Of a DNA stretch of 43,394 nt, positions 25,177 through 30,646 are shown piece by piece. A model generated the notes under the pieces. The model was given only the letters and a program-made list of their open reading frames with translations. It was not told the DNA's origin and did not search any database. The DNA is from an uncultured Pelagibacteraceae bacterium (GTDB lineage Bacteria > Pseudomonadota > Alphaproteobacteria > Pelagibacterales > Pelagibacteraceae). The stretch is from NCBI GenBank assembly GCA_902595725.1, contig CACJRJ010000011.1, positions 1 to 43,394 on the forward strand. The letters are read 5' to 3'. Position numbers and translations under genes: made by a program. Numbering within the stretch: the stretch's first letter is position 1; each line of letters starts with the position of its first letter.

Positions 25177-26444
25177 TTTAAATTTAAAACTTCTCCAGCA
25201 AGATATAAGGATCCAGTGATAATAATTATATCATTATCCTTTAAATTTATTGATTTAATAGCTTCCTTAATTGATTTTTTATAATTGATATTATTAAAAT
25301 TTTTTAATTTTTTCATTAAGTCTTCACCATTAATAGCATTAGGTTGGTTTGGAATATCTACAGTTGTTAAAGAAGATATTTGATCTTTAAAATAACTAAT
25401 ATATTCAACATGATCTTTATTATTCATCATTCCTAAAATTATATGTTTATTACATTCTAATGAATTTAAATGTTTACTTAAAACATTAGCACCAAGAGGG
25501 TTATGGGATCCGTCAATATAAATTTTATTATATTTTACTAAATCTTTTAATTTTCCATTTTTTATCTCTGAAAATCTTGCAATGCTTTTAATTTTTTTTA
25601 TTCCATTTATAATATTTTGATTTGAAACATTTATTTCTTCTACATTTCTGATAGTTGCTATAGCTGTTGATATATTTGATAATTGAAATTCTCCCTCTAA
25701 ATTTGGTAGCGGAAGCTTAATACCTCCGTATTTATCCTCATAATAAAAAAATCCATTTTCATTTAATGAGTAGTTAAAATCATTACCAAAAGTTATTTTT
25801 TCAGAAGAATTTTTCTCAATTGAGTTTGATATTTTATTTAAAGTTTTATTTGAGCTTTGTTTCGAGACAATAATTTTTGAAGTTAATAAAGATGAAGTTT
25901 TTTCAAATATTATTTGGTCTATTGTTTGTTTATTTTTTGGTAACCAGTCTAGGTGATCTAAGCCAATAGCAGTTATAACACTTGCTAAATTTGATTTAAT
26001 TATAGAACATGCATCTGCTCTGTGAAATAAACCACTTTCTATTATATTAATATTATTTTTGAAATTTTTAGCATTATAAAAATAAGCAGCTGTTAATATT
26101 TCAAAATAAGTAATGGGTTCGCCTGCATTGATATCCTCTACTTCAGTTAATAATTTTATAAGATTTTCATCAGAAATTTCCTCATCATTATATATAAATC
26201 TTTCATTAATTTTTTGAATGTGAGGACTTGTATAAATATTACAATTTATATTAGCATCTTTTAATATTGCTCTAATTGCTTGGATTGTAGAATACTTACC
26301 ATTTGTTCCAACTACAGATATATATTGTAAATTATCTTGAGGATTTCCAAGTTTTTTGCAAAGCTTACTAATTCGATCTAAACTTAAATCTATTTCTTTA
26401 GGATACAGCTTTTGTAGGCTGTTCAATATTTGTTGAAGTTTCAT
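25173..26444 (-). CDS. folC: Folylpolyglutamate synthase / dihydrofolate synthase
   Basis: Adds glutamate to dihydropteroate and to folates. The 423 residues have the Mur-ligase-like fold: the ATP loop reads VVGTNGKYSTIQAI (about residues 43-56), where GKGST is usual, so a loop Gly is Tyr. GLDHLDWLPKNKQTIDQIIFEK (read in part) matches the metal-binding and Lys region, and YIDGSHNPLGANVL the C-terminal domain. The conserved opening LYPKEIDLSLDRISKL fixes the start, which means the gene truly overlaps the accD 3' end by 47 nt. Confidence 0.92.
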   Translation of the reverse strand: MKLQQILNSLQKLYPKEIDLSLDRISKLCKKLGNPQDNLQYISVVGTNGKYSTIQAIRAILKDANINCNIYTSPHIQKINERFIYNDEEISDENLIKLLTEVEDINAGEPITYFEILTAAYFYNAKNFKNNINIIESGLFHRADACSIIKSNLASVITAIGLDHLDWLPKNKQTIDQIIFEKTSSLLTSKIIVSKQSSNKTLNKISNSIEKNSSEKITFGNDFNYSLNENGFFYYEDKYGGIKLPLPNLEGEFQLSNISTAIATIRNVEEINVSNQNIINGIKKIKSIARFSEIKNGKLKDLVKYNKIYIDGSHNPLGANVLSKHLNSLECNKHIILGMMNNKDHVEYISYFKDQISSLTTVDIPNQPNAINGEDLMKKLKNFNNINYKKSIKEAIKSINLKDNDIIIITGSLYLAGEVLNLN

Positions 26445-27333
26445 TTGATAATTCTGAATTTACCTCAGAATTTCTCTTTAGCAATATTTCAAGCAATTTT
26501 CCAATTTCATTTGTTAAATCTTTTCTATTTACTACCTTGTCAATAAAACCGTGCTTCTCAACAAATTCAGCTGTTTGAAAATCTGGACTTAATTCTTCCT
26601 TAACTGTTGCTTGAATTACTCTTTTACCAGCAAATGCTATTAAACAACCACTTTCTGCAAAATGAACGTCTCCTAACATGGCAAAAGATGCCGTTATCCC
26701 ACCTGCTGTTGGATCTGTAAAACATACTATATAGGGAAGATTAGTTTTTTTTAGTTCATTTATTGCAAGTGTAGTTCTGGTCATATTTGCTAACGCGATT
26801 GGACTTTCGAACATTCTTTGACCTCCTCCACAAGGAAAAAAAACATATGGAGTTTTATTATCTATTGCATGTTGCACTCCATATATAATTGCTTCTCCTT
26901 CTGCGGCACCTACTGATCCTCCTATAAAATCAAAATTTATTGCTCCTGCTGTAACTTGAATGCCATTAATCTGACCTTTTGCAATCATTACCGCGCAATT
27001 TTGACCAGTTTTTTTTTTTGCTTGCACTAATCTTTCTTTATAAGATTTAGTATCTTTCCAATTCAAAGGATCTTCAGCTGGAACTGGTGTTTCAAGAATC
27101 TCGTATTTATTTTTCCCAAAAAATATATCAAATCTTTGTTTACAGCTAATTCTATGATGCTTTCCACATGAGTTGCAAATCCATAAATTTTCTTCTAAAT
27201 CTTTTTTTAAAACTGGACCTTTGCAGCAGCTTGTCCAATCTGAATTTGCAATTTCTTCTTTTGTAGGAAATTTTTTTTGTAAATTTCTTTTTATTTTATC
27301 ACCAAATGTCTTTATTTTTGTTATCCAGTTCAT
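26398..27333 (-). CDS. accD: Acetyl-CoA carboxylase carboxyltransferase subunit beta
   Basis: Part of the enzyme making malonyl-CoA for fatty acids; works with AccA. The 311 residues include an N-terminal zinc-ribbon region with cysteines WTSCCKGP and CNSCGKHH, then the crotonase-like core: GGSVGAAEGEAI (about 134-145), FPCGGGQRMFES (about 162-173) and DPTAGGITASFAMLGDVHFAE. The first Cys pair is adjacent (CC), not CxxC, so zinc binding may be altered. The last 47 nt lie within folC in another frame. Start overlaps trpA end by 4 nt. Confidence 0.95.
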   Translation of the reverse strand: MNWITKIKTFGDKIKRNLQKKFPTKEEIANSDWTSCCKGPVLKKDLEENLWICNSCGKHHRISCKQRFDIFFGKNKYEILETPVPAEDPLNWKDTKSYKERLVQAKKKTGQNCAVMIAKGQINGIQVTAGAINFDFIGGSVGAAEGEAIIYGVQHAIDNKTPYVFFPCGGGQRMFESPIALANMTRTTLAINELKKTNLPYIVCFTDPTAGGITASFAMLGDVHFAESGCLIAFAGKRVIQATVKEELSPDFQTAEFVEKHGFIDKVVNRKDLTNEIGKLLEILLKRNSEVNSELSNETSTNIEQPTKAVS

Positions 27334-28133
27334 AAAATTTTATTTTTTAGTCTTTTTACTACTTTACTTACATTTGTGACAGGATTTTGTCTATTATTCA
27401 AACTTCTAGTAATTTCTTTACAAATTTCACTTCCAATAACTACACCATCAGAATTTGTGAAGGATTTAATTGATTTATTTGTAATTCCAAATCCTATTAC
27501 ACAATTTTTATTTTTATTTATTTTTTTTATTTTAATATAATTTTCTAAAATTTTTTTTGGTGGAACTTTTAATTTTCCTCCTGTAGTGGATAGCATACTT
27601 ATATAATAAATCATATCGTGTGAATCTTTTATAATTTTTTTCATTCTTTTTTTAGAGGTTGTTGGTGATAAAAGTTGAACGAAATTTATAGATTTTTTTT
27701 TACATTTTTTTGCAAATTTTTTATTTTCAGGCCAAGGTAAGTCAACAACAATTAATCCATCAACTTTAGATAATTTACAGTTTTTTATAAAATTATTTTC
27801 ACCATTTTGATAAATTAAATTATAATAACCCATTAATATCAAAGGTTTGTTAGGATTTTTATTTTTAAATTTTTTAGCAATTTGAAAAGTATCTTTTAAT
27901 GTAGTCCCATTTTTTAATGATCTGTAAGTACTATTTTGGATTTGACCTCCATCTGCAATCGGGCAATTGTGTAAAAATGAAAGTTCTAAAATATCAGCAT
28001 ATTTAGCAATTGAATTCAATATTTTTAGTGAATTTTTTTTAGTATTATCACCCGCAACGGTAAATGTTACCAGAGCTGGCCTTTTTTCTTTTTTACAATT
28101 TTTAAATGCTAAACTAATTGGAGATATACTCAT
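27330..28133 (-). CDS. trpA: Tryptophan synthase alpha chain, divergent
   Basis: The alpha chain splits indole-3-glycerol phosphate to indole and passes it to TrpB. The 267-residue barrel keeps catalytic Glu (in ILELSF) and Asp (in PIADGG) and the phosphate loops IGFGIT and VIGSEIC. But the loop normally ELGVPFSDPLADGP reads ELSFLHNCPIADGG (about residues 50-63), so the VPFSD part that contacts TrpB is lost, and the usual AGVTG is STTGG. MGYYNLIYQNG is standard. It overlaps trpB by 1 nt and accD by 4 nt. Position argues for TrpA; the changes leave function open. Confidence 0.8.
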   Translation of the reverse strand: MSISPISLAFKNCKKEKRPALVTFTVAGDNTKKNSLKILNSIAKYADILELSFLHNCPIADGGQIQNSTYRSLKNGTTLKDTFQIAKKFKNKNPNKPLILMGYYNLIYQNGENNFIKNCKLSKVDGLIVVDLPWPENKKFAKKCKKKSINFVQLLSPTTSKKRMKKIIKDSHDMIYYISMLSTTGGKLKVPPKKILENYIKIKKINKNKNCVIGFGITNKSIKSFTNSDGVVIGSEICKEITRSLNNRQNPVTNVSKVVKRLKNKIL

Positions 28134-29362
28134 TAAAATTTTCCTAATCTTTGTCTTAAAATATCTCGATCTTTATGTGCATCACCACACGAGTTTACAA
28201 TTATAACTGTATCCTTACTTAATTTTGGAGCTAATTTTATTGCTTCTGCAAATGCATGGCTTGGTTCCAAACTTGGATTTAAATTTTCATACTTTGTTAC
28301 AAGCTTATAAGCATGTAAAGCTTCTTCATCAGTTGCCGCTGTATATCTTGCCCTTTTAGTATCTTTTAAAAAACAATGAATAGGAGAAACTCCTGGATAG
28401 TCTAATCCGGCACTAATAGATTCTGTTTCTTCTATCTGGCCTTCGAAATCTTGATTTACATATTGGGAGGCTCCATGAAGAATTCCTATTTTTGACCCAT
28501 AAGTCAATGGGGCGGCATGTCTTTTACTTTTCTTTGGCCCTCCAGCTTCAATACCAATAAATTCAACTTGTTTTTTATTATAATGCATAAATTCATTCCA
28601 AAAACCAAAACTTGAAGACCCTCCTCCAACACAGTTTAATAATTTTACTTTTTTTGGAATTCTTCCAAATTCTTTTTTTATTTGTATAAAAAGTTCTCTA
28701 GAAATTTGTGATGTACTCCATCCACAAATTTTGACAAAAATATTGGGTCCTACAGTTGAACCTACACACATATGAGTGGTGTCACAATTTGATACCCAGT
28801 ACCTCATGCATTCGCTAACAGCATCCACGAGTGTTTGACTACCAGTATAAACTGGAACTATTTCAGCACCATTTTTTTTCATTGCATCACAGTTAGGCTT
28901 TTGTCTTTTAATGTCTTTTGCACCCATAAATATTTTACATTTTAAGCCAAATTTTTTTGCAGCCATGCTAAGCATTTTTCCAGCATATCCTGCTCCCGTA
29001 TCACCTACGATATATTTTTTTCCAGCTCTTTTTGCTATAAGACAATGAACAGTAGCATTATAAATTTTATGAGCACCTCCGTTTGCTTCAGAAACAACTT
29101 TTGTCCATATTTGAGCTCCACGAAGATGTTTTGTTAAGTTATTTAATTTTATAAAAGAAGTTGGTGACCCTACCCAGTTTTTAAAATAATAATCTCTTTC
29201 TTTAATAAAATTTTTATTTTTTCTCAATTTTCCAAATAATATTTCAAGGTCTTCTACTGGCTTTTTTAAGGTTTCAGGAATGAAATTACCTCCAAATTTT
29301 CCTCCCCAAAAGCCAAATTTATCGTGTTGATCAATTAATGGGATATTTTTTTTAATTTTCAT
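28133..29362 (-). CDS. trpB: Tryptophan synthase beta chain-like PLP enzyme, strongly divergent
   Basis: The family joins indole and serine using PLP. The 409 residues have the expected frame: FGGNFIPETL at the N-terminus, the PLP Lys in GGAHKIYN, the phosphate loop CVGGGSSSFGFW, and EETESISAGLDYPGVSPIH. Deviations are many: the KREDLNHTG before the Lys is absent (VVSEANGG instead), ETGAGQHG is DTGAGYAG (catalytic Glu to Asp, carboxylate-loop Gln-His to Tyr-Ala), GPHPYP is GPNIFV, and NLSGRGDKD is NSCGDAHKD. It lies between trpF and trpA. It may be a fast-evolved TrpB or an enzyme with another substrate. Confidence 0.75.
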   Translation of the reverse strand: MKIKKNIPLIDQHDKFGFWGGKFGGNFIPETLKKPVEDLEILFGKLRKNKNFIKERDYYFKNWVGSPTSFIKLNNLTKHLRGAQIWTKVVSEANGGAHKIYNATVHCLIAKRAGKKYIVGDTGAGYAGKMLSMAAKKFGLKCKIFMGAKDIKRQKPNCDAMKKNGAEIVPVYTGSQTLVDAVSECMRYWVSNCDTTHMCVGSTVGPNIFVKICGWSTSQISRELFIQIKKEFGRIPKKVKLLNCVGGGSSSFGFWNEFMHYNKKQVEFIGIEAGGPKKSKRHAAPLTYGSKIGILHGASQYVNQDFEGQIEETESISAGLDYPGVSPIHCFLKDTKRARYTAATDEEALHAYKLVTKYENLNPSLEPSHAFAEAIKLAPKLSKDTVIIVNSCGDAHKDRDILRQRLGKF

Positions 29363-29975
29363 TTTTAATCTTATTAATGTTTTCTAAAAAAATTTTTATC
29401 TTTGAAATATCTTTCTCTCCTGATGTTTCTAAGCTTCCTGAGATATCAATAATATCCGTTATTTTAGAATATTTATCAAGCTTATCATCATACTGAATGT
29501 TACCAGCAAGCATTTTATTTACTTTAGTTGACACATTATTCAGTAGCCGATGGTCAAATCCAATAGATTTCTCGTATCCTTTGCTGTCAAACAAAATTAT
29601 TTCAGAAGTAGACTCAAATTTTTTAAATTCTTCAATGTCATTTTTATTTTTGATTGTAATTGCAGTTATGATTTTGACTTTATATTTTTCTTTTATTATT
29701 TTAGTTCTTTTAGGGTCTACATCGTACAATTGATAGTAATCAAAATTTAAGTATTTAATCTTTTCTAAAATTTCATCATTTGGATTTACAAGTACGGATA
29801 CAAAATTTATTTTTTTTTTATCTATATTAATTAATTTTTTAAGACCTTCGTAATTGATATATCTTTTAGATTTGGGGTAATTAGTTATGAAACCAATAAA
29901 TTTAGGAGGATGCTTATGATTTATTATATAATTTAAAGTTTTAGAATCTTTAATACCACAAATTTTTGCATCCAT
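29352..29975 (-). CDS. trpF: Phosphoribosylanthranilate isomerase, divergent
   Basis: TrpF isomerises phosphoribosylanthranilate in tryptophan synthesis. The 207-residue barrel keeps the general base Cys in KICGIKD (residues 4-10) and the general acid Asp in ILFDSKG (about 127-133), plus GFITNYPKSKRYI. The usual phosphate motif GGTGKTFDW reads EKSIGFDH, LAGGL is LAGNI, and VSSGVE is ISGSLE. It ends inside trpB by 11 nt and abuts pyrF. The parallel drift in all three trp genes is notable. Assignment rests on the residues kept and on gene order. Confidence 0.75.
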   Translation of the reverse strand: MDAKICGIKDSKTLNYIINHKHPPKFIGFITNYPKSKRYINYEGLKKLINIDKKKINFVSVLVNPNDEILEKIKYLNFDYYQLYDVDPKRTKIIKEKYKVKIITAITIKNKNDIEEFKKFESTSEIILFDSKGYEKSIGFDHRLLNNVSTKVNKMLAGNIQYDDKLDKYSKITDIIDISGSLETSGEKDISKIKIFLENINKIKNEN

Positions 29976-30646
29976 TATTTATTAAGATGATCAATTAATT
30001 TTTGAATATTTTTTTTTATATTTCCTTTTGTAATTGGTCTTCCAATTACAAGCCAATCACTGCCATTTTTAAATGCTTCTTTCGGTGTCATAGTTCTTTT
30101 TTGATCATTTTTATTTGAATTAAATCTTATTCCAGGGGTAATTATTTCTTTTTTAAAAATTTTTTTTATATATTTTACTTCTCGAGCGCTACAAACAATT
30201 GCATCAAGCTTTGCTTTATTTGCTAGTTTGGCTTGATGAATTACTAACTTTTTTAGTTTCTTATCATAACCTATCTGTTTTAAAGAATAATTATCAATCG
30301 ATGTAAGCGTTGTAACACCAACTAACTTTATTTTACCTGAAACCTTTTTTGTTGCTTTTAATGCTTCTAGACCTGAACTTATATGTATAGTTAAATACTT
30401 AATATTAAGATCTTTAATAACTTTTACAGTAGAAGCGCATGTATTGGGTATATCGTGCAACTTTAAATCAGCAAAAATAATTTTATCTTTAATTTTTGAT
30501 ATAAAAGATCTTCCATGCTTAGAGTTAATAAATTCTAAACCAAACTTATAGCCAATTTTTAATTTTTTTGTATTTGAAGACTTTATTATCTTTTTAACAA
30601 AAGAAGTTTTATTTACATCACAAGCAATAAATATTTTTTTACTCAT
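29975..30646 (-). CDS. pyrF: Orotidine 5'-phosphate decarboxylase
   Basis: Converts OMP to UMP, the last step of UMP synthesis. The 223-residue barrel has the catalytic motif FADLKLHDIPNTCAST with the Asp-Lys-Asp array (about residues 59-74), an early FIACDVNKT, VCSAREVKYI, ITPGIRFNSN and the C-terminal phosphate loop WLVIGRPITKG. It sits between ihfB (8-nt overlap) and trpF, the alphaproteobacterial order. Confidence 0.95.
   Translation of the reverse strand: MSKKIFIACDVNKTSFVKKIIKSSNTKKLKIGYKFGLEFINSKHGRSFISKIKDKIIFADLKLHDIPNTCASTVKVIKDLNIKYLTIHISSGLEALKATKKVSGKIKLVGVTTLTSIDNYSLKQIGYDKKLKKLVIHQAKLANKAKLDAIVCSAREVKYIKKIFKKEIITPGIRFNSNKNDQKRTMTPKEAFKNGSDWLVIGRPITKGNIKKNIQKLIDHLNK

Follow-up and report, generated by a model that had tools for sequence, protein, structure and literature searches.

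What has become of tryptophan synthase in a bacterium whose trpF, trpB and trpA genes sit in the expected place and yet each lack motifs that are nearly invariant elsewhere? The question is raised by a 43,394-nucleotide stretch of DNA from an uncultured Pelagibacteraceae bacterium (contig CACJRJ010000011.1 of assembly GCA_902595725.1), referred to here as the window; it is contig C11 of a 1.08 Mb genome that is 84% complete. The original prediction, made from this stretch, was that either the complex had been rebuilt by co-evolution or it works on another substrate. We find that the window TrpB and TrpA are the usual SAR11 form of the enzyme, which we call type I. Very probably, type I is a tryptophan synthase that still makes tryptophan, its subunit interface is co-adapted, and in its chromosomal slot trpBA has been swapped, as a pair, by deeply different pairs.

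The window genes and the usual SAR11 form

As had been predicted, trpF, trpB and trpA lie between pyrF and accD; they are three intact open reading frames (ORFs) on the minus strand, neighbours overlap or abut, and the slot is conserved among relatives. The features, with lengths in amino acids (aa), are as follows.

29975..30646, minus strand: pyrF, upstream flank of the conserved slot (NF001273, 195.4 bits against a cut-off of 193)
29352..29975, minus strand: trpF, putative phosphoribosylanthranilate isomerase (PRAI), 207 aa (PF00697, 70.8 bits against a cut-off of 22.7)
29559..29573, minus strand: shortened TrpF loop EKSIG, residues 135-139, replacing the GG loop
28133..29362, minus strand: trpB, tryptophan synthase beta chain, SAR11 type I, 409 aa (TIGR00263, 383.8 bits)
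29066..29068, minus strand: TrpB Lys99, the pyridoxal phosphate (PLP) lysine, equivalent to Salmonella K87 (column invariant in 48 sequences)
29000..29002, minus strand: TrpB Asp121, at the Glu109 position (E to D, by alignment)
28826..28828, minus strand: TrpB Val179, at the position of Lys167, an alpha-subunit contact (by alignment)
27330..28133, minus strand: trpA, tryptophan synthase alpha chain, SAR11 type I, 267 aa (TIGR00262, PF00290)
27984..27986, minus strand: TrpA Glu50, the catalytic Glu49 (invariant in 43 sequences)
27963..27965, minus strand: TrpA Cys57, at the Asp56 position in the TrpB-contacting loop (by alignment)
26398..27333, minus strand: accD, downstream flank of the conserved slot (TIGR00515, 265 bits, below the cut-off of 317.45)

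The changes reported in all three genes are real, but they belong to the usual SAR11 form and are not peculiar to this genome. In TrpB, DTGAGYAG does stand in place of ETGAGQHG, with Asp at the Glu109 position; the carboxylate is retained, one carbon shorter than that of the canonical Glu. Across 153 distinct TrpBA pairs, position 109 is Asp in 122, Glu in 30 and a gap in one. Each distinct pair entered these counts a single time. Both here and in the TrpF loop counts below, loci L001-L004 (genes of the window itself and the TrpB2 locus) were set aside, and TrpA or TrpB of 200 aa or less, TrpF of 170 aa or less and low-scoring proteins were dropped. In the beta active site, the type I changes are E109D, Q114Y/M, H115A/F/N and Asn236 to Ser (Salmonella numbering, by alignment). 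The supposed loss of KREDLNHTG before the PLP lysine needs trimming: because KRED is rare in alphaproteobacterial references (2 of 18), the lost signature is LNHTG, not KRED. Similarly, where CGDAHKD was read as a replacement of SGRGDKD, the RGD part has indeed changed, but the Cys, at position 377 in the CGxxxKD motif, is no loss, being present in 9 of 9 canonical Pelagibacterales and alphaproteobacterial rows. In TrpA, SFLHNCP (in the context ELSFLHNCP) is present instead of GVPFSDP, but only as a local sub-variant, found in 11 of the 122 DTGAG-type pairs; other type I TrpA proteins mostly have HNTP or HNCP, and their loop retains the Gly after Glu49-x.

The core residues are kept, again as predicted: the PLP lysine (in AHK) and the equivalents of alpha-Glu49, alpha-Asp60 and alpha-Thr183. 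Window TrpB also has the GGGS phosphate loop, which is as invariant as the lysine over the 48 sequences; in TrpA, Thr183 is as invariant as Glu49 over the 43, and at position 60 the 153 pairs have Asp in 146 cases and Glu in 7. Against PDB TrpB the window protein matches with an E value of 2.7e-100, and its AlphaFold model (predicted local distance difference test, pLDDT, 94.2) has the fold of a fold-type II PLP enzyme, with template modelling (TM) scores of 0.92/0.97 to the TrpB of 6am8. TrpA scores 203.8 bits with TIGR00262 (cut-off 102.35) and 217.7 bits with PF00290, and its model (pLDDT 93.9) has a TM score of about 0.9 to PDB TrpA. Type I TrpB resembles Salmonella and Pyrococcus TrpB1 (TIGR00263) in fold, PLP lysine, GGGS loop, equivalents of Arg141 and Asp305, and an operon with trpA; it differs in Asp for Glu109, in the changed Gln114/His115 and Asn236, and in having no Lys167, GRGDKD or LNHTG. 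It is not a TrpB2 (TIGR01415/PRK12391), a member of the same superfamily, since it reaches only 90.5 bits against a cut-off of 518.85.

Named genomes contain at least 585 candidate stretches that code for a relative; the best 80 of these are 81-96% identical, and the nearest come from uncultured Pelagibacteraceae (TrpB 96% identical), which places the window in SAR11. A TrpB match at E ≤ 1e-25 was found in 182 of 197 genomes of the order (142 of 149 better genomes), exactly one in each. The match is stronger than 1e-100 in 170 of the 182 and weaker in the other 12; 11 of these 12 genomes, all except G123, together with G017 supplied the alternative TrpBA pairs described below. In each of ten closed type I genomes, the type I protein is the sole TrpB match. 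One such protein, in a single-contig genome of 1,308,759 bases (G066; sole match at E ≤ 1e-20), has DTGAGYAG and scores 403.5 bits, above the TIGR00263 cut-off of 392.45; of the 10 closed type I genomes, 7 exceed that cut-off.

A frameshift or assembly error in the window had been raised as a possible explanation; it is not the case, the ORFs being intact and the same motifs present in many relatives. A pseudogene is ruled out, as trpB is under strong purifying selection, with ratios of nonsynonymous to synonymous substitution rates (dN/dS) of 0.03-0.08 in six comparisons with relatives. Phage origin was also rejected: viral_contigs, searched with the query's peptide patterns, which distant forms would escape, gave no match.

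Different pairs in the same slot

The gene order pyrF-trpF-trpBA-accD-folC is conserved, but the trpBA pair within it is not always type I. In the window's own genus we found type II pairs at five loci (L114, L115, L128, L134 and L139), with ESGAG and alpha-Glu at positions 56 and 60, and type III pairs at two (L116 and L138), with ETGAS. The corresponding slot in family f2 holds type I (at L119, L121 and other loci), a sister group of type II (L118 and L142) or canonical alphaproteobacterial pairs (L117, L140 and L141). Near relatives, with rpsA 93-97% identical, can have subunits that are only 26-35% identical. Thus L128 (type II) and L097 (type I) have identities of 0.93 in rpsA, 0.93 in ihfB, 0.81 in pyrF, 0.93 in accD and 0.86 in folC, compared with 0.61 in trpF, 0.35 in trpB and 0.27 in trpA; for L138 (type III) and L067 (type I), the values are 0.97 in rpsA and 0.26 in trpB. 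Because close relatives carry different versions of both parts at the same chromosomal spot, the trpBA pair has apparently been exchanged as a unit.

The edges of the exchange are visible in the DNA. Identity between L128 and L097 is mostly 0.7-0.94 outside the pair and about 0.5 over trpB and trpA, the edges falling in the last third of trpF and, with a return to 0.84, within the start of accD. Between L138 and L067 identity already drops within pyrF and stays low as far as accD and folC; the tracts thus differ in length. To judge by such edges, replacement probably proceeds by homologous recombination in the conserved flanking genes; across Pelagibacterales the slot has very probably been refilled repeatedly by deeply different pairs. 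Within Pelagibacter, gyrA and other core genes, as well as the 16S rRNA gene, have been reported to undergo lateral transfer (PMC12416821); that is a similar transfer of core genes, although the main text of that paper nowhere mentions tryptophan or trp.

Phylogenies point the same way. The trees of the two subunits agree on the type groups but not on their relative order, for which support is poor. Type changes at least nine times on an rpsA tree of 28 chosen loci (21 f1 and 7 f2), a tree with long branches. It could be argued that the types are fast-evolving descendants of a single, vertically inherited SAR11 trpBA and only appear distinct through long branches; all the pairs do occupy the same slot, the type stems are long, and GC content at third codon positions (GC3) gives the alternative pairs no foreign signature. 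We consider this very improbable. Genomes as close as those compared above differ profoundly in TrpB; type I occurs in two families with rpsA only about 35% identical, and so does type II taken together with its sister group; monophyly of family f2 is rejected on the TrpB tree (approximately unbiased test, p-AU 2.2e-6); and selection on trpB within type I is strongly purifying.

A donor outside the order was sought for each type and none turned up: the best identities among the matches listed were 45% for type I (class sample of 210 genomes, 154 matching at E ≤ 1e-60), 50% for type II (2 of 299 phylum genomes matching at E ≤ 1e-115) and 38% for type III (19 of 299 phylum genomes matching at E ≤ 1e-75). 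GC3 gave no sign of foreign origin either, the alternative pairs resembling their neighbours. L042 also points to a transfer of trpBA from one distant strain to another: its TrpB is 91% identical to that of the window, yet its rpsA and accD are only 56% and 51% identical at the DNA level (dN/dS for this locus is out of the useful range in several genes).

The flanking genes vary too. In L115, L130, L134, L136, L138 and L139, accD is 42-59% and folC 26-29% identical to the window's, far below other members of the genus. Five genomes that are 91-96% complete (G112, G135, G194, G195 and G186) have no match to the window accD at E ≤ 1e-20; either their accD has diverged further or the locus is missing from the assembly.

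Probable co-adaptation of the two subunits

In tryptophan synthase, alpha-Asp56 pairs directly with beta-Lys167. Among the 153 pairs, an acidic residue at alpha-56 accompanies Lys at beta-167 in 28 and a neutral residue accompanies Val, Ile or Leu in 125; mixed combinations number zero. The Salmonella interface is formed mostly by loop alpha-L2 and the COMM domain of TrpB; indole is activated by beta-Glu109, and loop beta-L3, the serine carboxylate sub-site, contains beta-Gln114 (PMC9512447). Simulations have beta-Lys167 and alpha-Asp56 each interacting with the channel residue beta-Tyr279 (PMC8187860), and, judging by structure titles, crystal structures of beta-K167T mutants exist. We infer that the alpha-56/beta-167 pattern has a physical meaning of this kind. 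The types also differ in how much of another residue pair they keep: type I retains both Arg141 and Asp305, type II is without Asp305, and its f2 sister is without Arg141 too, so that different types have rebuilt different parts of the switch.

Pairwise identities of trpA and trpB correlate at 0.97 over 73 f1 loci, compared with correlations of trpB with rpsA of 0.32, ihfB 0.18, pyrF 0.19, trpF 0.29, accD 0.46 and folC 0.53, the locus pairs behind these values not being independent of one another. Together with the matching type groups in both trees and the absence of mixed alpha-56/beta-167 pairs, this supports the proposal of rebuilding by co-evolution for TrpA and TrpB. The contact surface of the two subunits, along with some beta active-site positions (Glu109 to Asp, Gln114/His115 changed and Asn236 to Ser), would then have been rebuilt as a co-adapted set, and trpB and trpA would be inherited and exchanged together because of an interface that is probably pair-specific.

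The same proposal fails for TrpF. EKSIG is indeed present in place of the GG loop, and relatives outside the window's family, f1, have that loop, but its distribution follows family and not TrpBA type. By alignment, it occurs in none of 106 f1 TrpF proteins (99 alongside type I, 5 alongside type II and 2 alongside type III TrpBA), in 10 of 11 from f2, including 5 of the 6 alongside type I (the exception is L119), and in 15 of 16 class references (the exception is L152). Joint remodelling of all three genes is therefore rejected, and the TrpF loop change is a separate family trait. The window TrpF misses all equivalog cut-offs of the NCBIfam PRAI models (best 106.5 against 216 bits), and we class it as a probable PRAI from its Pfam match, operon position and pathway context. 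The motifs KICGI and LFDS are present and presumably hold the catalytic Cys and Asp. One locus, L145 (genome G124), showed no trpF in the interval separating pyrF from type I trpBA; 3 of 37 SAR11-like contigs were earlier reported to be without trpF (Kagan et al. 2008, PMC2395257).

Does type I make tryptophan?

The rest of the pathway is present. In the window genome, trpE, trpG, trpD and trpC are clustered on another contig (trpC is above the Pfam cut-off and below the NCBIfam ones). Among 25 genomes chosen to represent every type, trpD is present in 23 and trpC in 22; each of the 19 with a completeness of 90% or more has both. The species P. ubique reportedly synthesizes the full set of 20 amino acids (PMC5764234), and G066, which has the genome length of P. 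ubique HTCC1062, has type I as its only TrpB match; in this indirect sense close homologues with the same residues are known to make tryptophan. Type I is most probably the cell's ordinary tryptophan synthase, and the pair would make tryptophan from indole-3-glycerol phosphate and serine.

The other half of the original prediction, that the pair works on another substrate, finds no support here. Type I might have been recruited to a different nucleophile or amino acid, with tryptophan coming from another enzyme or by import; the beta-site changes E109D, Q114Y/M and H115A/F/N are compatible with that, as is a second TrpB homologue in the window genome. This homologue (L120:8442-9803, minus strand, contig C3) is of TrpB2 type, however, with 721.9 bits to PRK12391, so the genome has a single TrpB1-type copy and not the second, canonical trpAB that had been envisaged. 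A second, weaker TrpB match occurs in only 2 of the 25 chosen genomes (that in G203 is of no assigned type), the closed type I genomes have one TrpB match plus trpD and trpC, and in close relatives the same operon slot is filled interchangeably by other TrpBA types. Taken with the report on P. ubique, these observations make recruitment to another substrate very improbable.

The TrpB2-type genes are sporadic among relatives. In L120 the gene is followed by a 400-aa ORF that has no NCBIfam match, and an ORF with a similar start follows a TrpB2-like gene in L122.

Contamination, chimerism or some other assembly or binning artefact is a still poorer account of the alternative pairs, and one to which we give scarcely any credence: single-cell and metagenome assemblies are numerous among the genomes, and in one assembly of a single contig (L176) the ORFs of trpB and trpA are shortened, but type II occurs in a single-contig genome (G012; 1,343,202 bases) and four further genomes, type III in two, gene order is conserved and GC3 resembles that of the neighbours.

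In the genome containing L176 (G190), trpB is 306 aa and trpA 167 aa long, and trpC is split over two pieces (G190:C1:930231-930997). This looks like sequencing frameshifts or gene decay.

Discussion

Several observations weigh against the conclusion that type I is an ordinary tryptophan synthase with a co-adapted interface, in a slot refilled by whole pairs. The window TrpB falls 9 bits below the NCBIfam trpB cut-off, and 3 of the 10 closed type I genomes are also below it. At E ≤ 1e-25, TrpB went unmatched in 15 of the 197 genomes, including 7 with a completeness of 90% or more (one of the 15, G198, has type I trpA at a contig end). The identification of G066 with P. ubique HTCC1062 rests on genome length. 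Type II monophyly on the rpsA tree is only weakly rejected (p 0.032, with long branches). The alpha-56/beta-167 pattern is confounded by descent, which accounts for much of it, and may reflect as few as two or three events; the stems of types I and III are the minimum of independent ones. Finally, the low-identity tract between L138 and L067 is not limited to trpBA, and accD and folC also have deep alternative forms, so displacement may be regional and not special to trpBA.

A more adventurous idea, which we think unlikely, is that trpBA is a diversifying SAR11 locus. Mutually incompatible pairs would circulate and be swapped as a unit, under selection for changed or rare versions imposed by an inhibitor, phage or rival factor acting on tryptophan synthase; the alpha-56/beta-167 pairing would be part of a compatibility lock that makes both genes move together.

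That SAR11 has an unusual enzyme lineage had already been noticed. SAR11-like trpB genes form a distinct cluster, probably an early trpB1 branch, with the same gene order, and trpB is single-copy in P. ubique (Kagan et al. 2008, PMC2395257); the portion of that report available to us describes no residues, TrpA co-change or alternative pairs in the slot. A search of titles and abstract openings, with few subscription papers covered, found no description of alternative trpBA pairs in SAR11, and repeated in-place replacement of the whole alpha-beta pair appears to be unreported.

Tryptophan synthase is a textbook coupled two-enzyme machine, in which the catalytic Glu109 and the alpha-beta contacts are regarded as near-fixed. 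SAR11, the most abundant bacteria of the ocean, appear to use a version with Asp at position 109 and a rewired contact. The natural replacement pairs are ready-made alternative solutions that have already been tried in vivo, and with them one can test directly through which contacts the allosteric signal passes. They also bear on why a streamlined genome repeatedly exchanges an amino-acid biosynthesis enzyme out of step with its neighbours.

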